NCBI GenBank assembly: GCA_038888615.1
Contig: JAWAID010000001.1
Location: 682,001 to 746,000 of the forward strand
Source of the DNA: Candidatus Korarchaeum sp.
Lineage (GTDB): Archaea > Korarchaeota > Korarchaeia > Korarchaeales > Korarchaeaceae
Length of the DNA stretch: 64,000 nucleotides
Reading direction: 5' to 3'
A program made the translations under genes and the position numbers. Positions 8,237 through 57,765 of the stretch are shown in pieces. Each line of letters opens with the position of its first letter. The stretch's first letter is position 1. The notes under the pieces are model-generated. The model was given only the letters and a program-made list of their open reading frames with translations. It did no database searches and was not told where the DNA came from.

Positions 8237-8872
8237 CTACTGGGAGATCCACCTGCTCCTCCCGTTGGAGAATATCTCCTTCTTCCAGATAGCGGCCCTC
8301 CTCTTCACCTCATCCACTATCCAAATGGCGGCTTCGAAAGCCTCCCTCCTGTGAGTGGACTTCGTGATGACTAGAAGAGCCACTTCTCCCGCCGGTACGT
8401 CCCCAACCCTGTGCAGAACGATGGCATCCTTCAACCCGAACTTCTTCATCGCTTCCTCCCTTATCTCAGTCAGCTCCCTCTCAGCGACCTCAGGATAGCA
8501 GTCGTAGAAGATCCTCTCGACCTCTCCCTGATCGGACTCCCTCCTCACGATACCGAGGAATGACACCATCGCTCCGATGTCGCCCTCGGCCTGAAGGAGC
8601 TCCTCCACAGCTATCCTATCCCTCACGATTCCAGCTCTTCCAAAACCTCCTGAGAAGCTTGGGAAGATGGCGACAACATCCCTTCCACTCACCCTCACCG
8701 AGAGGTCCCTAACTAGCTCGTGATTGAGTGCTACGTGAACCCTACCCTCCTCAAACATCTTCTCCAGTTTTAGGGAACTTAAGAGCTCCTTCAAGCTACC
8801 ATCAAACTCCAATTCCCTATCCCTGAACCCCAGGAGATCTGAGAGCCACCCGAAAACCCTCAAGGAGACCAT
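8237..8872 (-). CDS. MoaD-MoaE fusion, molybdopterin synthase
   Basis: Both subunits of molybdopterin synthase are in one 211-aa chain. Residues 1-76 are the ubiquitin-like MoaD, ending at FPSFSGG, where the sulfur-carrying Gly-Gly (75-76) should be a free C-terminus. From about residue 82 the MoaE domain follows (GAMVSFLGIVRRES, HRVGDVPAGEVALLV, THRREAFEAAIWIVDEVKRRAAIWKKE with the catalytic lysines). The Gly-Gly is internal, so cleavage after residue 76 is probably needed before it can be thiocarboxylated, as reported for mycobacterial MoaX. The ATG at 8872 begins one base after the thiolase stop; an ORF extension to 8911 looks spurious. Confidence 0.92.
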   Translation of the reverse strand: MVSLRVFGWLSDLLGFRDRELEFDGSLKELLSSLKLEKMFEEGRVHVALNHELVRDLSVRVSGRDVVAIFPSFSGGFGRAGIVRDRIAVEELLQAEGDIGAMVSFLGIVRRESDQGEVERIFYDCYPEVAERELTEIREEAMKKFGLKDAIVLHRVGDVPAGEVALLVITKSTHRREAFEAAIWIVDEVKRRAAIWKKEIFSNGRSRWISQ

Positions 8873-8873
8873 A

Positions 8874-10055
8874 TCAATGCACCAGCTCAAGGGCCATGCT
8901 CTGAGCACCACCGCCTCCGTGGCATATGGTAGCTAAGCCCCTCCTCTTGCCCTTGATCCTAAGCGCGTTGAGCAAGGTAACCACTATCCTAGCCCCGCTG
9001 GCCCCGAGCGGGTGACCTATCGCCACAGCTCCACCGAAAGGGTTTATCTTGCTCAGGGGGACGTTTAATCCCTTGGATACGACTAGGGTCGCGAGAGCGA
9101 AGGCCTCGTTGTGCTCCACTATATCGAAGTCCTCTAAGCTCATGCCTATCCTCTCGAGGAGCTTCCTGGTCGAGTAGATAGGGGCCTCTATGAAGTCCTT
9201 AGGATCCACGGAAGCCGAGGCGGATCCTAATATCCTAGCTAGCGGCTCAATACCCCTCTCCTCAACGACCTCCCTATGAGCCAGCACTAGGGCAGCGGCC
9301 CCATCGCTGAGCTGGGATGCGTTAGCAGCCGTGATCACACCGTCTGGCCTGAAAGCTGGCTTCAGCTTTGAGATCTTCTCCATGCTGGTATCCGGCCTTA
9401 TCCCCTCATCCCTATCGAGGGGGGCTCCTACAATAACCCTCTCCATCTCCCTACCGAAGTACCCTCGCTCGGTCGCCTCACTGGCCTTCATGTGACTCGA
9501 GAGGGCGAACTCATCGCATTCCTCTCTGGTTATTCCCCACTTCCTGGCTGTCTCCTCAGCCTCCTCTCCCATCAGAAGCCCCGTATGGGGATCAGTCAGA
9601 CCGTCGTGGACCATCAGATCGACTAACTTCTCCCCGGTGAAGGAGAACCTCACGCCCCACCTCCACTGAGGGTGGATCGCGTAAGGAGCGTTACTCATGC
9701 TCTCCATCCCGCCGGCAACGACAACCCTGTTCTCCCCAAGGGCTATGCTCTGAGCAGCTAGAGATATGGCCTTCATCCCTGAGGCGCAGACCTTGTTGAC
9801 CGTGAACCCGGGGACATGCTTGGGGATGCCCGCGAGTATGGCCGCTTGCCTAGCGGGGTTCTGCCCAACCATCGCCTGGAGGACGTTCCCCATTATGACC
9901 TCATCCACGTCCTCGGGATCCAAACCGCTCCTCCTGATAGCGGATTCTATCGCCACAGCCCCCAGCTCCGGTGCCGTGAGCTTGCTCAGAGCCCCGCCGA
10001 ACCTACCTATCGGCGTCCTGGAGAAGCTGACGATGAACACATCGCCCAGATCCAT
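8874..10055 (-). CDS. acetyl-CoA C-acyltransferase (thiolase)
   Basis: This is a thiolase-fold enzyme that cleaves or condenses acyl-CoA with CoA or acetyl-CoA. The nucleophile Cys is in NKVCASGMKAIS; GGMESMSNAPY, HNEAFA and NPFGGAVAIGHPLGASGAR (catalytic His) follow, and the second Cys is in TICHGGGGAQSMALE. The last motif has CHGGG in place of the usual CIGGG. Both Cys and His are present, so this is the catalytic type, not the archaeal HMG-CoA-pathway thiolase that works with an OB-fold partner. The ATG at 10055 follows GGTGA and a TATA box at about 10082-10094. It forms a likely operon with moaDE downstream. Confidence 0.9.
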   Translation of the reverse strand: MDLGDVFIVSFSRTPIGRFGGALSKLTAPELGAVAIESAIRRSGLDPEDVDEVIMGNVLQAMVGQNPARQAAILAGIPKHVPGFTVNKVCASGMKAISLAAQSIALGENRVVVAGGMESMSNAPYAIHPQWRWGVRFSFTGEKLVDLMVHDGLTDPHTGLLMGEEAEETARKWGITREECDEFALSSHMKASEATERGYFGREMERVIVGAPLDRDEGIRPDTSMEKISKLKPAFRPDGVITAANASQLSDGAAALVLAHREVVEERGIEPLARILGSASASVDPKDFIEAPIYSTRKLLERIGMSLEDFDIVEHNEAFALATLVVSKGLNVPLSKINPFGGAVAIGHPLGASGARIVVTLLNALRIKGKRRGLATICHGGGGAQSMALELVH

Positions 10056-11812: not shown

Positions 11813-12144
11813 GCCTCAACAATTTAAGAAAAAGTTTGACCTAATGCGTGGCGGCACCCCCGATACGATTCCCCTTCGATACCCAAAATACCATCATGTT
11901 AAATAGCTTTACCACTGGTTCCTGATGAAGTTATTAATATTAAGCTCACGCTAAGCTGACACTCATTCAGCGAAGTGTACCTCATCCCCCACTAGCCATA
12001 GACCTCCCTTTGAGCTGGCTGAGGTTCCATACCGATCGCACGAGATCTATGAGGACAATTCCTTAGGGAAACCGCTGATCGCAGTGAGGTTTCGGAGCAC
12101 GGTATCTTAATATCCCACTCCCCTTGAATCTTCAGGTGACTCAT
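11813..12144. other. intergenic region without a gene
   Basis: This is about 330 bp between the divergent etfB and HEPN genes. The etfB promoter lies at the left end and a CTTAATATCC TATA-like element near 12107-12116 precedes the HEPN gene. No ORF, tRNA or clear hairpin was found. An AT-rich patch (around GTTATTAATATTAAGC near 11930) has no visible partner. Confidence 0.4.
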
Positions 12145-12579
12145 GTGGTTTCCCGCGTCTCTGACTGGTTAAGACAGGCTTTGAGGGATCTGAAGCATGC
12201 TGAGAGATCGATTGAACTCGGAGATTATGAGTGGGCCTGCTTCGCCGCTCACCAGGCCGCAGAGAAAGCAGTTAAGGCCCTTTACCAGAAGCTCGGAGTC
12301 GAGGTCTGGGGTCACTCCGTATCACGCATGCTCGATTCCCTTCCCGAAGAATACAGGCCCCCTGAGGAGCTCATTAATGAGGCCAAGGAGCTCGATAGGA
12401 ACTATATCCCCACCAGATATCCGAACTTTCATTCTGAGGGTGCACCAATGGATTATTATACTAGGAGGGATGCTGAGGAGGCGGTGAGTTACGCGCGTGA
12501 GATCCTGGAGTACTGCAGGAGTAAGGTTCTTCAAGATGGAGTACGAGGGGGTCCTCAAGAGGCTCGTGGACTACGCTGA
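12145..12579 (+). CDS. HEPN-domain protein (toxin partner of MNT)
   Basis: This small all-helical HEPN protein is of the PF05168 type, paired with a minimal nucleotidyltransferase. The typical pattern is SDWLRQALRDLKHAERSIE, YEWACFAAHQAAEKAVKAL and HSVSRMLDSLP, then YIPTRYPNFHSEGAP. RYPNFH fits the R-x4-H signature of HEPN RNases. HEPN members of such pairs are often RNA-cleaving toxins, but toxicity is not shown here. The GTG at 12145 follows AGGTGA; an ORF extension to 12124 starts with TTG. The 3' end overlaps the MNT gene by 44 bp. A second HEPN/MNT pair is at 53.3-54.0 kb. Confidence 0.8.
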   Translation: MVSRVSDWLRQALRDLKHAERSIELGDYEWACFAAHQAAEKAVKALYQKLGVEVWGHSVSRMLDSLPEEYRPPEELINEAKELDRNYIPTRYPNFHSEGAPMDYYTRRDAEEAVSYAREILEYCRSKVLQDGVRGGPQEARGLR

Positions 12580-12925
12580 GAGGGCAGTAGCTAGGGGTGC
12601 CAAGGCCGTGATCCTCGTTGGCTCTCTCGCCAGAGGGGACTACACAGCATTTTCCGATGCGGACATCATAATAATATCGGATGAGGTCCCCGAGAACCCC
12701 ATCAGGAGGATCTCGGATTTCATGGACCCCTCGCTGCCAGTGGACGTAGAACCCCTTGTCCTTACCACAGAGGAGTTCCTAAAAATGGCTAAGGAGGGAA
12801 GAAGGATAGTCAGAGAGGCTATATTTTACGGGAAGCTGTTGTTCGGAGATCCCGAGATAATCAAAGCGGCCAGCAGGTATCTTGAATCTGAGGACGGAAG
12901 CTCAGAGAGATGGGAAGGGGAGTGA
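12536..12925 (+). CDS. minimal nucleotidyltransferase (MNT), antitoxin-type
   Basis: This is a pol-beta-fold nucleotidyltransferase. The G-S-x10-D-x-D active site is GSLARGDYTAFSDADIIII, and the third acidic position is likely in LPVDVEPLVLT. It is 129 aa, the size of stand-alone MNT proteins. Paired MNTs can neutralise HEPN toxins by adding AMP to them, as reported for HepT/MntA; this function is inferred. It overlaps the upstream HEPN gene, so the two are coupled. The ATG at 12536 is used because the protein N-terminus (MEYEGVLKRLVDYAERAVARG) matches the family. Confidence 0.8.
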   Translation: MEYEGVLKRLVDYAERAVARGAKAVILVGSLARGDYTAFSDADIIIISDEVPENPIRRISDFMDPSLPVDVEPLVLTTEEFLKMAKEGRRIVREAIFYGKLLFGDPEIIKAASRYLESEDGSSERWEGE

Positions 12926-13449: not shown

Positions 13450-14655
13450 TTGGTCGATTTCTCGTTCAGCGAGGAGGAGGAGGTTTTCAGACGGACCCTC
13501 AGGGAGCTGCTCTCGGAGGTTCTGGCACCGAAGGCTAGGGAGATAGACAGGGGCTGCAGGATACCGGCAGATGTGATAAAAACGCTCGCTGAGAGCGGGA
13601 TCCTGCTCCTCACAGTGAAGCCGGAGTACGGTGGTCAGGGGGCTAGCTGGGTGATGGGCACGATAGCCACTGAGGAGATAGCAAGAGCCGATCCCAGTGT
13701 TGCGACTGCCGTCTTTCACTTGGTAGAGGCATCTTGGGGCAAGATAGTGGAGAGATACGCTAAGCCCGAGCTAGCGAAAGATATCCTAAGCAGGGCAGCT
13801 AAGGGGGAGGGCTTCGTGGGTATATGCTCTACGGAACCTCAGAGCGGTAGCGACGTAGCTGGGTTCAAGACCCTAGCTAAGAAGGAGGGAGATCACTGGG
13901 TACTGAACGGCGAGAAGACTTACATAAGCGGCATAGTTGAAGCTAAGGAGGTGGATGGAGGTTACGTCACCTTAGTTAAGACGAAACCTGAAGCGGGTTC
14001 TAAGGGGATCAGCCTCTTCTGGTTGCCGATAAATACTCCTGGGATAGAGACAGGGATCCTCGAGGACATGGGGAGATGTGGGATAAGCACTGGATGGATA
14101 AGGCTGAACAACGTGAAGCTTCCAGAGGATCACTTGATAGGTAAGGTGAATGAGGGCTTCGAGCTGGCCATGGAGGGGTTCAACAGAGCGAGGGTCTTCG
14201 TGGCAGCCGGATGCACGGGCTCAGCTATGGCTATGTTCGAGTACACGAGGGACTACGTTAAGAGTAGGACGGTATTCGGGAGGTCCCTAGCCTCCTTCGA
14301 GGGTATTCAGTTCCCGTTAGTTGATTATTATGCTAAGATAGAGGCGGCTAGACTGGTGATGTACAAGGCAGCCTGGATGGTCGATCAGTTCGATCAGGGA
14401 AATGCTACTCTCAGAGATGTAGGTATTTGGGCAGCCACTGCTAAGCTATTGGCTCCTGAGATAGCTGTGGATGCCTTAAAAGAGTTCATGAAAGCTACAG
14501 GAGCTTATGGATACACGAAGGACGCTCCCCTGGAGATGGCCCTCAGAGGGGTGATCAGCTACTACGTGGGGGCTGAGGGTGGTCAGAACATAATGAGACT
14601 CATCCTAGGGAGGTTCCTGTTCGGCCCTGAGCACCTTCCCTATAAGCAGAAGTGA
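13450..14655 (+). CDS. acyl-CoA dehydrogenase
   Basis: This FAD enzyme introduces the alpha-beta double bond in acyl-CoA and passes electrons to ETF. The order is as in the family: N-terminal helices, ICSTEPQSGSDVAGFKT (FAD/substrate), WVLNGEKTYISG, then the C-terminal helical domain with SRTVFGRSLASFEGIQF, GAYGYTKDAPLEMALRG and AEGGQNIMRLILGR. The Glu in AEGG aligns with the catalytic Glu of medium-chain enzymes. It is 401 aa, full length. The start is TTG at 13450, seven bases after GGGGGT; no in-frame ATG is available nearby. The chain-length preference cannot be read from sequence. Confidence 0.92.
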   Translation: MVDFSFSEEEEVFRRTLRELLSEVLAPKAREIDRGCRIPADVIKTLAESGILLLTVKPEYGGQGASWVMGTIATEEIARADPSVATAVFHLVEASWGKIVERYAKPELAKDILSRAAKGEGFVGICSTEPQSGSDVAGFKTLAKKEGDHWVLNGEKTYISGIVEAKEVDGGYVTLVKTKPEAGSKGISLFWLPINTPGIETGILEDMGRCGISTGWIRLNNVKLPEDHLIGKVNEGFELAMEGFNRARVFVAAGCTGSAMAMFEYTRDYVKSRTVFGRSLASFEGIQFPLVDYYAKIEAARLVMYKAAWMVDQFDQGNATLRDVGIWAATAKLLAPEIAVDALKEFMKATGAYGYTKDAPLEMALRGVISYYVGAEGGQNIMRLILGRFLFGPEHLPYKQK

Positions 14656-14783
14656 CCTCCTGAGCTCATGCTCTAAGCGGAACCAACTCAACATCTCGGG
14701 GCCTCCTCCTGGGAGGCCCTGGCGGTATTTACTAACTCCTAATCTGAGTTTAGGTTTTTAACTCGAGCGAGGTGAGGTGGCCC

Positions 14784-15902
14784 GTGGCCTACGAGTGCCC
14801 CAGGTGCGGCTCTACATCCAGCTCGAGCTGGAGGTGCCCCGACTGTGGCTCGCTAATGGAGATCAAACCTGAGAGGTTGTATTGGGAAGTTCAGGAGAGA
14901 GAGCCCTCGATCTGGAGGTACAGGAGACTCCTGCCTAGGGCTAAGAGGGTAGTGAGCTTAGGTGAGGGATTGACTGACTTGAGGAGATTAGACGGCACCC
15001 TCATAAAGGACGAGACCAAGAACCCCACCGGTTCATACATAGACAGGGGCTCATCGGTCATGGTGAGCTGCTCCGATGCCTCAGGCAAAGTAGAGCTCGA
15101 GTTCTCCCCTGATGTCACGATCTCCCTGGCGTCCTATCTCCTCAGATCGGGGAGCACCGTTGAAGTGAGGGTGGATCCGGAGGAGGCGGATGTAGATGAG
15201 CTGCTCTACCTATCTCAACTTGACCTCGAGATCACGTTCGGCCCTAAGTTAACTAGGGCATCCTATGAGAACCCGTTCATGGTAGAGGGATTTAAGACGA
15301 TAGCTTACGAGATATACGAGTTCAAGCGGGACATCGGGGGAATCGTGATACCCTCGGAGTCCGGTGTTTTAGCTTACGGTGTAATGAAGGGCTTTTTGGA
15401 GTTGGAGGAGATGGGTCTGATGGAGGTACCTCCCATCTACTTAGCGCATCACGGCCCCCTCCGGGGGGATCTAGTAGAGCTCCTGATCTCAAGAGGGGCG
15501 AAGTTGATCGAAGCTCATCCGAGGGATACCGTAGAATCCCTGATCAAACTCGCTAGGGTGGGGGTTTACGTCAAGCCCCTCTCGGCTATGGCTTATGCGG
15601 TGGCCTCCGAACTGGGGGGTGATGTGGTTGCTCTGCTCACGGGAACGGGGTTGAGGAGGTGGAGGAGCCCTAGCTCGCTGGGATCCCTCACTCGCCTGCA
15701 GAGGAGGGTGCTTGGCGTGATGAGGGAGGGGAGGGAGATGACGGCCTACCAGATATGGCGTGAGCTCAACGAAGCGACTCTACAAGGGATCTACAAGGCT
15801 TTACTCAAACTCAGCAAAATGGGATTAGTTTCCTCCAGGAAGGAGATGCGTAAGAGGAGGATGAGAAGGGTTTACTACATCGCCGGGAGGCGAACCGAAT
15901 GA
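14784..15902 (+). CDS. threonine-synthase-like pseudoenzyme fused to a winged helix, probable regulator
   Basis: The N-terminus has a zinc ribbon (CPRCG, CPDCG) and a threonine-synthase fold, but the PLP site is lost. NPTGSYIDRG has Ile where thrC at 56.6 kb has the PLP Lys (NPTGSFKDRG). The TGN motif is replaced (FSPDVTIS), and the phosphate-binding GNAGN is SESGV. The last ~70 residues (from LTRLQRRVLGVMREGREMTAYQIW) form a winged helix ending in a basic strand, typical of DNA binding. I infer a ligand-sensing transcription factor derived from threonine synthase. The GTG at 14784 follows GGTGA. Its stop overlaps the ATG of the corrinoid protein (ATGA), so the two are coupled. Confidence 0.75.
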   Translation: MAYECPRCGSTSSSSWRCPDCGSLMEIKPERLYWEVQEREPSIWRYRRLLPRAKRVVSLGEGLTDLRRLDGTLIKDETKNPTGSYIDRGSSVMVSCSDASGKVELEFSPDVTISLASYLLRSGSTVEVRVDPEEADVDELLYLSQLDLEITFGPKLTRASYENPFMVEGFKTIAYEIYEFKRDIGGIVIPSESGVLAYGVMKGFLELEEMGLMEVPPIYLAHHGPLRGDLVELLISRGAKLIEAHPRDTVESLIKLARVGVYVKPLSAMAYAVASELGGDVVALLTGTGLRRWRSPSSLGSLTRLQRRVLGVMREGREMTAYQIWRELNEATLQGIYKALLKLSKMGLVSSRKEMRKRRMRRVYYIAGRRTE

Positions 15903-16558
15903 TCGATGGTGCGAGGGAGATGCTCAAGAGGTCCCTGGTGGACCTCGATGAGGAGGGGTTCATGAAGTGGCTCGAGGAACTGCTGGCGATGGGAGAGGAA
16001 CCCTGGGGGATAGTACTGGGTCCGATGAGCGAGGCCATGGAGGAGATAGGGAGGCTCTTCGAGGAGGGCGAGTACTTCATAGCCGAGATGCTTGAGGCAG
16101 CGGATATCTTCAGGAAGGCCTTGGAGAGACTCGGCATAGGTGAGGAGAGCGGGAGCTCCGGGCTGGGGACCGTGGTAATAGGGACCGTGAAGGGGGACGT
16201 TCATGACATAGGCAAGAGCTTAGTGGTCGCGATGCTGAGGGCAGCTGGTTTTAGGGTGATAGACTTAGGCGTTGATATCGATGCCGATACCTTCGTAAGA
16301 GCCGTTAAAGAGCACGGCGCTGATATACTAGCTATGAGCTCCCTCCTGACGACCACCAGGGATTACATGAGGGTGGTCATAAGGAGGCTGGAGGAGGAGG
16401 GAATCAGGGATAGGGTCAAGGTGCTGATAGGGGGTCTCTCCACATCCCCCGAGTTTGCCAGGTCCATAGGCGCTGACGGATGGGGGAAGGACGCTGCGGA
16501 CGGGGTTAGGGTAGCTAAGGCCCTCATCGAGGAGAAGAGGGGAAGGTTGATCGGTTGA
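15899..16558 (+). CDS. corrinoid (cobalamin-binding) methyltransferase-type protein
   Basis: This is a B12-binding protein of the MtbC/MtaC/MetH type that shuttles methyl groups. Residues 1-85 form the helical cap (IVLGPMSEAMEEIGRLFEEGEYFIAEML). The Rossmann B12 domain follows, with the Co-ligating D-x-H-x-x-G in GDVHDIGKSLVVAMLRAAGF, then SSLLTTT and IGGLSTSPEF. It is 219 aa, standard for stand-alone corrinoid proteins. It is coupled to the threonine-synthase-like regulator. No methyltransferase partner (MtbA, MttB or MetE/MetH domain) is in the window, so the methyl donor is unknown. Confidence 0.9.
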   Translation: MIDGAREMLKRSLVDLDEEGFMKWLEELLAMGEEPWGIVLGPMSEAMEEIGRLFEEGEYFIAEMLEAADIFRKALERLGIGEESGSSGLGTVVIGTVKGDVHDIGKSLVVAMLRAAGFRVIDLGVDIDADTFVRAVKEHGADILAMSSLLTTTRDYMRVVIRRLEEEGIRDRVKVLIGGLSTSPEFARSIGADGWGKDAADGVRVAKALIEEKRGRLIG

Positions 16559-25894: not shown

Positions 25895-27194
25895 GAGGCT
25901 CGACCTCCGGAGGGTTAGGGGGATAAGGCCTGACCTCGGACTCAAGAGGGCAACCTCCTCTACAGGCTCCTAATGCTGGACAGCTCAAGCAGGCATCACC
26001 TACGTAAGCGGCTTCCCTTATCCTCCTGCATCCCTCAGAGTACCAGATTCTCTCCCAGTCATCCCTCAGTATGTTTCCGAGCCTCAGGTAGTGGCTCTGG
26101 CAAGGTATGACCGATCCATCCGGCTCCACAGCTATCGCTATACTGCAAGCCGAGCAGAACTTCGGGCCCAACCCAAGCTCGATGGGATCGATCTCACAGT
26201 ACCTGGTGACCCCGTACCAAGTGAAATCCAGACCAAGCTGTAAGCAGAGCTCTTTCGCCTCAGAAACGACCCTCCTCATCTCATCGAAGTCCGGCTCTAG
26301 GTCCTCGGCTAGCTTAGCCCTTCCGCTGTAAATCAACCTGTTCAATGAGTAGCCATGGACCCCCAGCCCAGCGACGAACCTCAGGGTGTCCGCTATCCTA
26401 CTCGAGTTCTCCCTCAAGAGTGTTGAGTTCACGCTAACGTAAACCCCGGTCCTCAGAATGTTCCTTATACCTTCAACGGTCCTCTCCCAGCTCCCCCTCA
26501 CTCCCGTGATCCTCTCATGCACCTCAGGGTCACTAGCTTCCAGGGTGATCTGGATGTAGTCTAAACCAGCCCTGGCGAGCCTCTCCGATAGCTCCTCGCT
26601 TAACAGAGTTCCGTTAGTTACTACACCCGATACGATCCCCAGCCTCTGAGCCTCCTCTACCAGCTCCACCAGGTCCTCCCTGAGGGTGGGCTCGCCTCCG
26701 GTGAAGGTCACCTGAGGGACTCCCAGATCCCTGAGGATCCTCAGGACCTCCTTCCACTCATCCGTGGTGAGTTCCCTCACCTCAGCGGGGCTATCGGAGT
26801 AGCAGTGGAGGCATATGTTATTGCAATCGTAGGTCAACGCTAGATCCACCCTAAGGGGAGCGGAGAGGAGTGAAACATCCGGGAACTGATACCTGAATCC
26901 CAAGTCCGTTACGGGATCACCGTAACCCTCTATGAACTTACTTACCTTATCAACTATCTCCTTGAAGTGCTCCCTAATATCCCTCTTCCTCAACCCCCTG
27001 TAGTGTGCCCTCAGTTCCCTCAAAGCGTCTCTCCAGTCACCTCCTGAGAGGAATGCCTTCACCATGAGAGCAGCCGTGTGGTTCAGGTAAGCTAGCCTAC
27101 TGGCATCCACGACTAGCGAGCCCATGCTGTAAGGTTCGATCCTCAGCTGAACCTTATGGCCCTTGTAGTTGAACTGCATGAACCTTTCGCTCAA
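25878..27194 (-). CDS. radical SAM/SPASM enzyme with N-terminal PqqD-like domain
   Basis: This is likely a peptide- or protein-modifying radical SAM enzyme. Residues ~1-95 resemble PqqD/RRE (SLVVDASRLAYLNHTAALMVKAFL and the following helices), a domain that binds precursor peptides. The radical SAM core has CNNICLHC, FTGGEPTLRED and GVVTNGTLL. The SPASM domain has CSAC, GSVIPC, CLSC and CRGGC for extra clusters. It is about 438 aa. The start is TTG at 27194, overlapping the stop of the upstream membrane-protein gene as TTGA, with GGAGGCGGTG as binding site, which itself encodes part of the Cys tail. It is thus coupled to its likely substrate. Confidence 0.88.
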   Translation of the reverse strand: MSERFMQFNYKGHKVQLRIEPYSMGSLVVDASRLAYLNHTAALMVKAFLSGGDWRDALRELRAHYRGLRKRDIREHFKEIVDKVSKFIEGYGDPVTDLGFRYQFPDVSLLSAPLRVDLALTYDCNNICLHCYSDSPAEVRELTTDEWKEVLRILRDLGVPQVTFTGGEPTLREDLVELVEEAQRLGIVSGVVTNGTLLSEELSERLARAGLDYIQITLEASDPEVHERITGVRGSWERTVEGIRNILRTGVYVSVNSTLLRENSSRIADTLRFVAGLGVHGYSLNRLIYSGRAKLAEDLEPDFDEMRRVVSEAKELCLQLGLDFTWYGVTRYCEIDPIELGLGPKFCSACSIAIAVEPDGSVIPCQSHYLRLGNILRDDWERIWYSEGCRRIREAAYVGDACLSCPALGACRGGCPLESEVRPYPPNPPEVEPHELRS

Positions 27195-28795
27195 CGGACA
27201 CCGCCTCCCGCGCAAGCACAGGCGCAGCTAACACAAGCGCAAGCACAGGCGCAGCTAACACAAGCGCAAGCCACTCTGACTCTCCTACTGCTCCCACTAG
27301 GCCTCTCGGGGACTATGGCCTTGGCTACTCTCTCAGAGAAGTCCTCCAGGTTGGTCACGATGGATGAGGAGAACCTCTCGATGGACCTGGCTACGGAGTC
27401 AGCGGCTTTCTCCAAGTCAGTGACCACCGGTACATCGCGGGCTGGCTCCTGGGGAGTAGGGACGTATACGGTCCCCCTCCTCGGGATCCATATCAGGACA
27501 TCCGGAGGCTCTCGCACAATCACGGTAGCGGGGGCTCCCTCCCTCATGTACCTCCTCAGCTTCCCATCGAAGTCCTCATCGGTCAGGAGCCAGGGTAGGT
27601 TCTCCCTGAGGAACTCGAGCCTCCTATCCGGCACCTCCTCCGAGAGCCTTCTCCAGAGCGAGCTGACGAGCTTCTCGTAGTGAGTTAGGGTCTCAAGTCT
27701 CGAGTATCCCGAGAGCTCCTTATTCACTCTCCTGTGGAGGACCCTAATCACGTTGACCAAGCATTCCTCCTTGGGCCTCACTCCCTCTAAGCAACTGAGG
27801 AACTCACTCTCGTAAGCCCTAAGCTGAACGGTGGTCTCGCTCAGCCTCTCCATCTCCAGGGGCTCCAATCTCCTGATGTTGAGAAGACCCTTGTTAGATA
27901 GGACCAGAGCTAATATAGCCAGTATCCTGCCGTAACTGATCCTCCTTCCCTCTAGCTTCTTCAAGTAGGCTACCTCAGGTGGCTCAAGGTTCTTATTGAT
28001 CCCCAAGCTCTCGACAACGACCTCCGGGACCTGATAAGGTCTCTTCTCCATCAGGACCTTAGCGTACCTCACTATGAGGAAGATGGACGCTAGGAGCGCC
28101 CCCAGGAGGATGAGGGCCAACATGACGTACAGCGTATCGTTCTCCTCAGAGCTGACGTAGGCAGAGACGTAATCCTTCGGGAATGAGACACCGACATCCA
28201 GCTTGAAGTTAGGCTGAAGCATTCTCCTCTCCCAGTAGAGAGCGATCCTGTTGTCCTCTAGAACGATCAAGTTATCGTAATCCGGTTGGTTCCTCACCTC
28301 CTCGCTCCTGACGCCGGGTGGAAGGACGACCCACAACCTGAGCCTCCTGACCATCGCATCGAACCAAGATGGTATGAACCTAAGTCCCACGTTCCCGGGG
28401 TTCGTCAGGTCCTCGTATATGAAATCCCTCAGCCTGACCTCCAGGTAGTAGGTTCTGGACTCTCCAGCGTGTATCGGCGTACCAGGGTGCATCCTAACAG
28501 CGTAGTAACTACCCTCAATGACCTTCTCGTAACTGATCCTCCTAGCTTCCCCCTCGTAAATCTCTAAAGCCGTTAAAACATCGAAGTTCCTGGAGGGCAT
28601 ACCGATTGAGACGTAGCTAGTCACCGTACCGGCTGTGATGCGGATGGTTAAGTTGTAGGAGAGGAGGATATCCCCGGATCCCTCTATAACGAGCGTCACG
28701 TCCTCCTCCTCTACCTCGTAGCTTACTTGCGCTGATACGGCAGCTAGGGGTATCAAAAGGAGCAGCATTAGGACAGGAGTGATTACCCTATTCAT
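27191..28795 (-). CDS. DUF2207-like membrane protein with Cys-Ala repeat tail
   Basis: A signal peptide (VLMLLLLIPLAAVSA) and a ~200-residue extracellular beta domain are followed by one strong helix (LYVMLALILLGALLASIFLIV, ~225-250). A cytosolic part follows, with a DUF2207-like PPEVAYLKKLEGRRISYGRILAIL region. The C-terminal 25 residues are unique: two perfect copies of CACVSCACA (510-518, 519-527), then CAGGGVR, nine Cys in 19 residues. The tail should be cytosolic, where the adjacent radical SAM enzyme could modify it or metal could bind. Leaderless ATG at 28795, TATA near 28818-28828. First gene of the four-gene operon. Confidence 0.82.
   Translation of the reverse strand: MNRVITPVLMLLLLIPLAAVSAQVSYEVEEEDVTLVIEGSGDILLSYNLTIRITAGTVTSYVSIGMPSRNFDVLTALEIYEGEARRISYEKVIEGSYYAVRMHPGTPIHAGESRTYYLEVRLRDFIYEDLTNPGNVGLRFIPSWFDAMVRRLRLWVVLPPGVRSEEVRNQPDYDNLIVLEDNRIALYWERRMLQPNFKLDVGVSFPKDYVSAYVSSEENDTLYVMLALILLGALLASIFLIVRYAKVLMEKRPYQVPEVVVESLGINKNLEPPEVAYLKKLEGRRISYGRILAILALVLSNKGLLNIRRLEPLEMERLSETTVQLRAYESEFLSCLEGVRPKEECLVNVIRVLHRRVNKELSGYSRLETLTHYEKLVSSLWRRLSEEVPDRRLEFLRENLPWLLTDEDFDGKLRRYMREGAPATVIVREPPDVLIWIPRRGTVYVPTPQEPARDVPVVTDLEKAADSVARSIERFSSSIVTNLEDFSERVAKAIVPERPSGSSRRVRVACACVSCACACACVSCACACAGGGVR
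27212..27271 (-). repeat. 27-bp tandem duplication encoding the Cys-Ala tail
   Basis: The unit, 27 bp (27212-27238), is repeated exactly at 27239-27265, followed by six bases of a third copy. Each copy encodes the nonapeptide CACVSCACA. Because even synonymous positions are identical, the duplication is recent or kept uniform by recombination. The copy number probably varies between strains. Confidence 0.9.
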
Positions 28796-55690: not shown

Positions 55691-56584
55691 TCATAGTGGT
55701 GATGCGCCCTCGGCTAGAGCCGCCCCCAGGATGGTAACCGGTACGCTCAGCTCCCTGCACCTCTCCCTCATCCTCCTCGATAAAGCCTCGCAGTCCTCAC
55801 AAAGCGCGATCAAAGTGGGTCCAGCTCCACTCAGGGAGATCCCCAGGGCTCCCGACCTCATGGCCTCCTCCCTCAGCTCGTTGAGTCCGGGGATGAGCCC
55901 GGCCCTCACCTCATCCACGAAGGAGTAACTCATCCCCTCGCCGAACAGCTTAGCATCACCCAGGGTGAGACCCAGTAGCAGGCGGGACAGGTGGGAGCAA
56001 TGACTCAGGAAGCTCTCAAGCGGTACCTCCTTAGGGATCACGCTCCTCATGTACCTCGTCTTTTCCTCAGGCACTTCCACCCAGGGGATCAGGAGGAGGA
56101 ACTCGAAGTCCGGCTTGAACCTGACGATCCTACTGCCCAACACGACCAAGCCGCCTAAGAGGGATGGAGCCACGTTATCGGCATGAGGGGATCCCGAAGC
56201 TATTCTCTCACCCTCACTAGCGGCTTTAACGAGATCCTCATCATCTAGAAGTCCTCCCAGCATCTCGTCTATCGCTCTAACGGTGGCCGCTGCTGAGGCA
56301 CCGCTGCTCCCGAGTCCCCTACGCGGTGGAACCCCCTTCCATATCCTTATCGAAGCGTCGAGCCTCTGCTCAGCCATCCTGAGGGCCGCCCTAGCGGCTT
56401 CAGCGGCCGAGTTGAGCTCCCCCAAGGGTACCGAGGAGGAGTAGGGACCGCTCACCTCAACCACCCTGGCCTCGCCCCTCCCGCTGCTCAGCTCCACCTC
56501 CACCACATCGTGGAAGGCATCCAGGGCCACGCCCATCAGGTCGTAGCCGGGCCCCAGGTTAGCGCTGGAGCAGTAGGCCCTCAC
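55691..56584 (-). CDS. thrB: homoserine kinase
   Basis: GHMP-family kinase that phosphorylates homoserine for threonine synthesis. CSSANLGPGYDLMGVAL, the ATP loop PPRRGLGSSGASAAATVRA, and the C-terminal LGISLSGAGPTLIAL. 297 aa. The start is GTG at 56584 overlapping the thrC stop (GTGA), so it is coupled to thrC. Confidence 0.95.
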   Translation of the reverse strand: MRAYCSSANLGPGYDLMGVALDAFHDVVEVELSSGRGEARVVEVSGPYSSSVPLGELNSAAEAARAALRMAEQRLDASIRIWKGVPPRRGLGSSGASAAATVRAIDEMLGGLLDDEDLVKAASEGERIASGSPHADNVAPSLLGGLVVLGSRIVRFKPDFEFLLLIPWVEVPEEKTRYMRSVIPKEVPLESFLSHCSHLSRLLLGLTLGDAKLFGEGMSYSFVDEVRAGLIPGLNELREEAMRSGALGISLSGAGPTLIALCEDCEALSRRMRERCRELSVPVTILGAALAEGASPL

Positions 56585-57765
56585 CCTCGTGCTAACACCT
56601 CCCTCAGGAGCCTGATCGCCTCGTCGCTGCTCCTCACCCTGATCGCCTCAGGTACCTGCACCACATCAGGGTCCTTAAGAGCGTGTCCCGTCGCGATCAA
56701 GACTACAGTATCGTCTTGTTCTATCTCATTACCAACCAACTTCGTGTAAGCCGCGTAAGGGGAAGCTGAAGCAGGCTCCACTCCTATTCCCATCCTTCCC
56801 AGCTTTCTCTGAGCTTCTAAGATCTCCTGATCACTCACCTCAACGGCTAAGCCTCCGCTCTCCCTCAACGCCCTCATCGCCTTAGGCCAGTTCACGGGCC
56901 TCCCGATCCTTATGGCCGTGGCCACAGTCTCAGGGCTCTCCACGAATAGGGGCTCGCTCCTCCCCTCCCTGTAAGCCCTGGCTATCGGGGAGGCACCCTC
57001 AGCTTGCACACCGATCAGTCTGGGGAGCCTAGGTATGAGTCCTCTCTCCCTGAGCTCCTTGAACCCCTTCCAAACCGCTGATATGTTTCCGGCATTCCCC
57101 ACGGGCAGTATTATCCAGTCAGGAACCCCTATCTCATCCGCTATCTCGTAAGCCAAGGTCTTCTGACCCTCCAACCTCCAGGGGTTGAAGGAGTTCAGGG
57201 GGTAGAGGCCTAGTTCCCTGCTGAAGGCTCCCATAACGGACTCCAGAGCGTCGTCGAAGGAGCCCTCTATCTCTATCACGGTAGCCCCATGCAGGACAGC
57301 TTGGAAGAGCTTTCCCTTAGCTACCTTACCCCTAGGGAGTATGATAAAGCTCTTGAGACCCGCTCTAGCAGCGTAAGCTGACATAGAAGCGGCTGTGTTC
57401 CCCGTGGAAGCGCAGACCACGCTGCTGACCCCCTCCTCCTTAGCCACGCTGATGGCCACCGACATCCCCCTGTCCTTGAAGGACCCGGTCGGGTTGGACC
57501 CCTCGAACTTGACGAGGAGTTTGTTCCCCACCTCCATGAGGGGAGTTCCCCCCTCCAGCATCGTGATCGGAGGGACCCTGGGTAGGAGCTCTCTGTACCT
57601 CCAGACACCGAACCTCCTAGACCTGAAGAGCTCCCAAGATACCTCAGGAGTCTCCTTGAGCTTCGGTTCCAGGAGCCCGTTGCAATTGGGACACCTCATC
57701 AACCAGGCGTCCGCCCCGTAGGACGATCCGCAGCTGACACACTCGAGCTCGTACTCTTGGAGCAT
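56581..57765 (-). CDS. thrC: threonine synthase
   Basis: PLP enzyme making threonine from O-phosphohomoserine. N-terminal zinc ribbon CVSCG, CPNC; PLP lysine in NPTGSFKDRGMS; CASTGNTAASMSAYAARAG; PVGNAGNISAVWKGF; VLIATGHALKDPD. 394 aa. All catalytic residues are intact, in contrast to the relative at 14784. Leaderless ATG at 57765 with a TATA (GGTTATTAATCG on this strand, 57784-57795) that could also serve glyA on the other strand. Confidence 0.96.
   Translation of the reverse strand: MLQEYELECVSCGSSYGADAWLMRCPNCNGLLEPKLKETPEVSWELFRSRRFGVWRYRELLPRVPPITMLEGGTPLMEVGNKLLVKFEGSNPTGSFKDRGMSVAISVAKEEGVSSVVCASTGNTAASMSAYAARAGLKSFIILPRGKVAKGKLFQAVLHGATVIEIEGSFDDALESVMGAFSRELGLYPLNSFNPWRLEGQKTLAYEIADEIGVPDWIILPVGNAGNISAVWKGFKELRERGLIPRLPRLIGVQAEGASPIARAYREGRSEPLFVESPETVATAIRIGRPVNWPKAMRALRESGGLAVEVSDQEILEAQRKLGRMGIGVEPASASPYAAYTKLVGNEIEQDDTVVLIATGHALKDPDVVQVPEAIRVRSSDEAIRLLREVLARG

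Follow-up and report, generated by a model that had tools for sequence, protein, structure and literature searches.

An archaeal family of threonine synthase–winged helix fusions with candidate regulators of vitamin B6 supply, and its derived member in Korarchaeum

The window, a stretch of 64,000 nucleotides from a Candidatus Korarchaeum genome, encodes a degenerate threonine synthase (ThrC) that is joined to a winged helix (TS-wH). The protein is a member of a wide archaeal group which is mostly filed as 'threonine synthase', and whose members are most likely transcription regulators; their DNA binding, ligand and sign of regulation are what we infer, and fold, fusion, lysine loss, single origin, operator and gene context are what was computed. 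New in this analysis is a putative operator, a dyad common to the TS-wH, pdxST and PF07155/EamA genes of the branch that has Ile, Val, Leu, Met or Thr at the site of the PLP lysine. With a probability of roughly two in three, we consider TS-wH an archaeal regulator family of single origin, whose operator branch adjusts vitamin B6 supply and whose Korarchaeum copy is derived, being probably a regulator of its own operon. Our confidence is slightly lower, though still on the favorable side, that archaea thereby possess a B6 regulator family of their own, an independent counterpart of PdxR/MocR that was redeployed to a corrinoid/acyl-CoA operon in the Korarchaeum branch.

The fusion protein of the window

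The relevant features of the window are the following (coordinates, strand, description):

13450..14655 (+): acyl-CoA dehydrogenase (Pfam), the upstream neighbor of TS-wH kept in the genus (gene-order comparison)
14784..15902 (+): TS-wH, the ThrC pseudoenzyme–winged helix fusion; starts with GTG at 14784, or with a GTG further upstream at 14772; 372-376 aa
14796..14846 (+): N-terminal zinc ribbon, Cys5/Cys8/Cys18/Cys21
15039..15041 (+): PLP-lysine site, Ile86 in NPTGSY-I-DRG (homolog alignment)
15102..15125 (+): former TGN loop, now FSPDVTIS (alignment)
15351..15377 (+): former phosphate-binding Gly loop, now PSESGVLAY (alignment)
15684..15899 (+): basic winged helix, residues 301-372 (HTH_27 match, AlphaFold2 model, pI)
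15899..16558 (+): corrinoid protein, MtbC/MtgC-like (PF02607 and PF02310, DVHDIG motif), in ATGA overlap with TS-wH
56581..57765 (-): authentic threonine synthase with lysine and STGN loop kept; adjoins a putative homoserine kinase

An AlphaFold2 model of the protein (mean pLDDT 89.2) contains the ThrC fold: it aligns with Arabidopsis threonine synthase (2c2b) over 291 residues at Z 30.6 and rmsd 2.5. Like the plant- and Thermus-type enzymes, the protein has a zinc ribbon, whose four cysteines are invariant in 43 homologs, and the invariant KDE..NPT..DR framework; both are also retained in comparison with the ThrC at 56581-57765. What distinguishes it from these enzymes is the loss of the PLP site and the addition of a winged helix of 60-70 residues. 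According to the alignment, the Schiff-base lysine of functional ThrC (GSFKDRG; consensus NPTGS[FY]-K-DR) is replaced by Ile, the TGN loop reads FSPDVTIS instead of STGNTAAS, and the Gly loop reads PSESGVLAY instead of PVGNAGNIS. In Pfam, the protein matches PALP (5.6e-16) and HTH_27 (1.8e-05), and the latter segment is modeled as three helices (304-314, 321-327, 333-345) followed by a two-strand wing (349-356, 359-366). The pI of the winged-helix segment is 11.8, versus 5.0 for the ThrC part. Orthologs from Korarchaeum yield dN/dS values of 0.06-0.15; TS-wH is thus a protein maintained under purifying selection.

An earlier note, made from the letters of this DNA alone, had read the protein as a threonine-synthase framework with zinc ribbon that lost the lysine and both loops and gained a basic winged helix. 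The alignment and the structure prediction bear this out, and so do the gene positions: a real, lysine-bearing thrC is indeed present elsewhere in the window, and the open reading frames 14772/14784-15902 and 15899-16558 overlap by ATGA as described. A further ThrC homolog with intact lysine site is encoded elsewhere in the same genome.

Two other regions of the window may be mentioned. The open reading frame at 27191-28795 (-) ends in a run of Cys-Ala repeats (VACACVSCACACACVSCACACAGGG; 27191-27280, its 3' end), which is odd in a protein of a thermophile and may reflect a tandem repeat of the DNA that is translated in frame. At 8237-8911, within a molybdopterin gene cluster, lies what looks like a MoaD-MoaE fusion protein.

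Extent and origin of the family

The earlier note had been aware of no described regulator of this build. The build is not unique: a search for the same fusion, in which named genomes were scanned with a wide alignment, revealed a large family distributed over Korarchaeia, Bathyarchaeia, Nitrososphaeria, Culex-, Njord-, Hel- and Lokiarchaeota, Geothermarchaeota, Thermococci and Desulfurococcales. In a tree inferred from columns of the ThrC domain only, with wing and lysine columns excluded and after removal of the longest branches (including L016 and L017), one branch divides the fused from the unfused proteins (SH-aLRT 99), and the TS-wH of the window falls within the fused family. Because the split rests on a single branch of this support, the fusion very probably arose once. 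The C-terminal wing of the relatives matches the PadR model, and is thus shared with PadR-family regulators. PadR proteins are small and possess no PLP-enzyme domain.

At least seven different residues replace the PLP lysine across the family. Most members carry Arg, together with an altered TGN motif, [ST]NGN; in another branch the residue is Ile, Val, Leu, Met or Thr; and in the Korarchaeum group, including a relative with 38% identity from a genome outside the window's phylum (G053), the site is occupied by Ile, Val, Ala or Ser, but never by Lys. Ten Bathyarchaeia-type fused proteins, which form one subclade, and one Lokiarchaeote keep the lysine; STGN is altered even in these. Common retention of the lysine by homologs had been named beforehand as an observation that would speak against a pseudoenzyme: close homologs and most of the family lack it, and the one subclade is the part of this objection that stands. 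Separate Lys-bearing ThrC copies are present in the genomes checked.

The nearest named family is NCBIfam PRK05638 (NF004170), 'threonine synthase', which has the same domain build and corresponds to the Thermococcales part of the family, so that the group is partly covered by an existing model. PRK05638 is also the best NCBIfam model for the protein of the window, although the score of 133.9 bits stays under the curated cut-off of 421. The cut-off is passed in 69 out of 115 genomes of the Thermococcales phylum. All 30 Thermococcales members that were read (L039-L068) have Arg at the PLP-lysine site, and each of the seven further ThrC-like copies that were read from this phylum has Lys. The equivalog appears to be made up of winged-helix fusions devoid of the lysine, and its name is probably wrong. 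In our literature searches the family is undescribed; a study of the threonine synthase zinc ribbon (Kaur and Subramanian 2017) may mention the fusion.

A palindromic operator and its vitamin B6 context

In the Ile/Val/Leu/Met/Thr branch, the dyad ATATATARG-N6-CCYATATAT is located 5' of TS-wH, pdxST, PF07155 or EamA transporter genes. As judged from sequence only, it precedes pdxST in five genomes, adjoining TS-wH in four of them and at a separate locus in the fifth, and CCATATATGG is perfectly conserved in four pdxST intergenic regions. The motif C[CT]ATATAT[AG]G occurs in 9 out of 29 upstream regions of this branch, as against 0.05 expected in shuffles, and in 0 of 59 from the Arg/Lys/Ser branch and 0 of 16 from the Korarchaeum group; paired copies lie 18 bp apart in 17 of 26 regions (1.5 in shuffles), counts in which related genomes enter more than once. 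When 24 whole genomes were searched at a tolerance of two mismatches, few sites emerged, mostly at TS-wH. Some of the sites lie away from TS-wH and had no part in the definition of the pattern, among them those before PF07155 genes of G205 and G210, which are homologous and therefore count as one event, and a site with two mismatches in a GC-rich Nitrososphaerales genome, which ends 23 bp before the start of pdxS; the sole other site of the latter genome is found at its TS-wH. ATATATAAGTTAGAGCCCATATAT represents the predicted target DNA of TS-wH from the operator branch (e.g. Nitrososphaerales L084, Bathyarchaeia L189). The dyad overlaps a TATA-like sequence, a position that would fit repression by occlusion. 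De novo dyad searches in the Arg, Lys and Thermococcales branches returned nothing convincing.

Several sites were not counted as support: two-mismatch sites of G218 (C26) and G206 (C3), near other membrane/ECF-type genes, have a different core, and the targets of one-mismatch sites in G351 (C127), G198 (C41) and G175 (C155) are ambiguous. A related dyad of the ATTTATGGGTTATTACCTATAAAT type, at L247:3486 and L248:3652, lies 5' of the gene for a membrane protein without annotation, close to a thiD-like gene, and may belong to another regulator, one of thiamine.

The gene context is consistent with these targets. A gene for a PF07155 membrane protein lies at most two genes away from TS-wH in 32 out of 57 fused loci with visible neighbors. 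PF07155 corresponds to the PdxU/PdxU2-HmpT family; few other transporters have been assigned to B6 vitamers, and PdxST is the only B6 route reported for archaea (PMC9997740). In Njordarchaeota, genes that we read as EcfA/EcfT-like adjoin the PF07155 gene. TS-wH is divergently oriented to pdxS-pdxT in four Bathyarchaeia (G218, G351, G354, G355) and to EamA transporter genes in two further Bathyarchaeia genomes. PdxS is missing in 30 out of 31 fusion-carrying genomes, and ThiC is present in 16 of the 31. As PdxS is rare across Bathyarchaeia in general (17 out of 256), its lack indicates B6 dependence but cannot, taken alone, count as correlated with the fusion. These numbers – ThiC in about half of the genomes, PdxS almost always missing – also weaken HMP/thiamine as a general reading of the PF07155 link; the family includes HmpT, so uptake of a thiamine precursor is still conceivable for the transporter. 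In Thermococcales, no anticorrelation of TS-wH and PdxS is seen, as both often coexist, and according to our reading of the neighbor clusters TS-wH adjoins psmB and a CPSF-like gene, not B6 genes.

An AIR-synthase-like gene often follows the PF07155 gene near TS-wH. In many Bathyarchaeia, the product (L075:8210-9235 and relatives) is an AIR-synthase-family protein, HypE/ThiL-like and outside known equivalogs, which may represent a kinase-like enzyme, so far missing, of B6 or thiamine metabolism.

We propose the following model. A threonine-synthase-type PLP enzyme would have been joined once to a PadR-like winged helix; the dimeric ThrC-like sensor domain would hold two winged helices, which could then read the dyad, and a small ligand in the degenerate pocket would set their affinity for DNA. 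In the operator branch, binding to the dyad before its own gene, pdxST and PF07155/EamA genes would tune vitamin B6 supply. The ligand of this branch is probably PLP or a B6 vitamer, which is the simplest assumption because the fold is that of a PLP enzyme and the targets are B6 supply genes.

A similar solution is known from Bacteria: PdxR/MocR proteins likewise combine a PLP-enzyme fold with a winged helix and recognize repeated or palindromic operators; PdxR targets pdxST and pdxU, and PdxQ targets DMT-family transporters (PMC5320631). The putative targets of the operator branch – pdxST, pdxU-type and DMT transporters – match these. The architectures differ: in MocR, a GntR-type wing at the N-terminus is combined with an aminotransferase domain of fold type I; TS-wH begins with a zinc ribbon, continues with a ThrC domain of fold type II, mostly without PLP lysine, and ends in a PadR-like wing. 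Accordingly, Pfam finds only PALP and the C-terminal wing in the protein of the window. TS-wH is not a member of PdxR/MocR; its operator branch would be an analog, invented independently.

The Korarchaeum branch and alternative readings

A full or near-full TS-wH ortholog exists in 14 other genomes of the genus, and fragments alone were found in G007. The gene order acyl-CoA dehydrogenase, TS-wH, corrinoid protein is kept within the genus, with the corrinoid gene directly 3' of TS-wH in 12 out of 14 informative genomes, that of the window included. The corrinoid gene is not adjacent in G002 (the most divergent Korarchaeum copy), in G003 and at the G053 homolog. Several Korarchaeum genomes have an EamA transporter and an ABC transporter further downstream; in G003 and G002, the EamA gene directly adjoins TS-wH. 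PdxS is present in 2 out of 16 Korarchaeum genomes. The dyad has no site with up to two mismatches anywhere in the window's genome or in G010, and 5' of the Korarchaeum acyl-CoA dehydrogenase and TS-wH genes there is no conserved dyad, only TATA-like elements. As the operator is absent here and was not found in the Arg and Lys branches, we do not extend the claim of B6 control to the protein of the window. This protein is a derived family member on a long branch, with both PLP loops lost from its pocket. It probably continues to bind DNA and to regulate its own operon, and its ligand may no longer be PLP. The targets would probably be the genes for acyl-CoA dehydrogenase, TS-wH and the corrinoid protein, and in relatives the EamA transporter.

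Between etfB and the acyl-CoA dehydrogenase gene, at 12124-12925, lies a HEPN/nucleotidyltransferase pair of the toxin-antitoxin type, which looks inserted, since the corresponding gap measures only about 130-350 bp in relatives.

The earlier note had interpreted the protein as a sensor of an amino acid or phosphorylated amino acid that controls transcription, and had suggested that it regulates a corrinoid methyl-transfer pathway, perhaps related to methionine or threonine. A ligand-sensing transcription regulator is still the most likely reading, and one branch of the family has an operator that is conserved and palindromic. The choice of ligand fares less well. A pocket derived from ThrC would suit threonine, homoserine phosphate or methionine, and the ATGA-overlapping corrinoid gene, adjacent in most of the genus, makes the coupling real in Korarchaeum. 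Yet this neighbor is absent in all other lineages seen, where pdxST, PF07155 and EamA genes take its place and the informative context points to vitamin B6/PLP supply; it is missing already at G002, the deepest Korarchaeum copy, and at the G053 homolog. Moreover, no methyltransferase gene accompanies the cluster in the loci examined, and genes of the threonine and methionine pathways are not neighbors. We therefore regard control of corrinoid-dependent methyl transfer by such an amino acid as unlikely.

A little less probable still is that TS-wH is no transcription factor, and that its pseudoenzyme and winged helix mediate contacts with other proteins, for instance allosteric ones with ThrC or the corrinoid protein. 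The tight coupling to the latter within the genus would agree with this, as would the operator-free results for the Korarchaeum, Arg and Lys branches; but the PadR-like wing is strongly basic, and in a sister branch built from the same domains a conserved palindromic operator accompanies B6 genes as well as the regulator gene itself. That the fused proteins are still enzymes, by lysine-free PLP chemistry or, in the Lys subclade, as threonine synthases with an extra domain, is very improbable: in spite of the retained lysines and the NCBIfam name, the variety of residues at the lysine site, the altered STGN, the separate ThrC copies and the Gly loop, also lost in Korarchaeum, speak against it.

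For the preferred reading, a regulator family with a B6-directed operator branch, the consequences are as follows. Our literature searches returned no account of how archaea regulate vitamin B6. With its operator readable and its predicted regulon short, the family opens this regulation to direct tests, including in Thermococcales, where genetic tools are available, and a curated 'threonine synthase' model is flagged whose members, as far as read, lack the catalytic lysine. If the reading is true, a likely group of B6 transporters can be named in uncultured archaea, and PLP-enzyme folds of different types would have given rise to transcription factors on at least two occasions.
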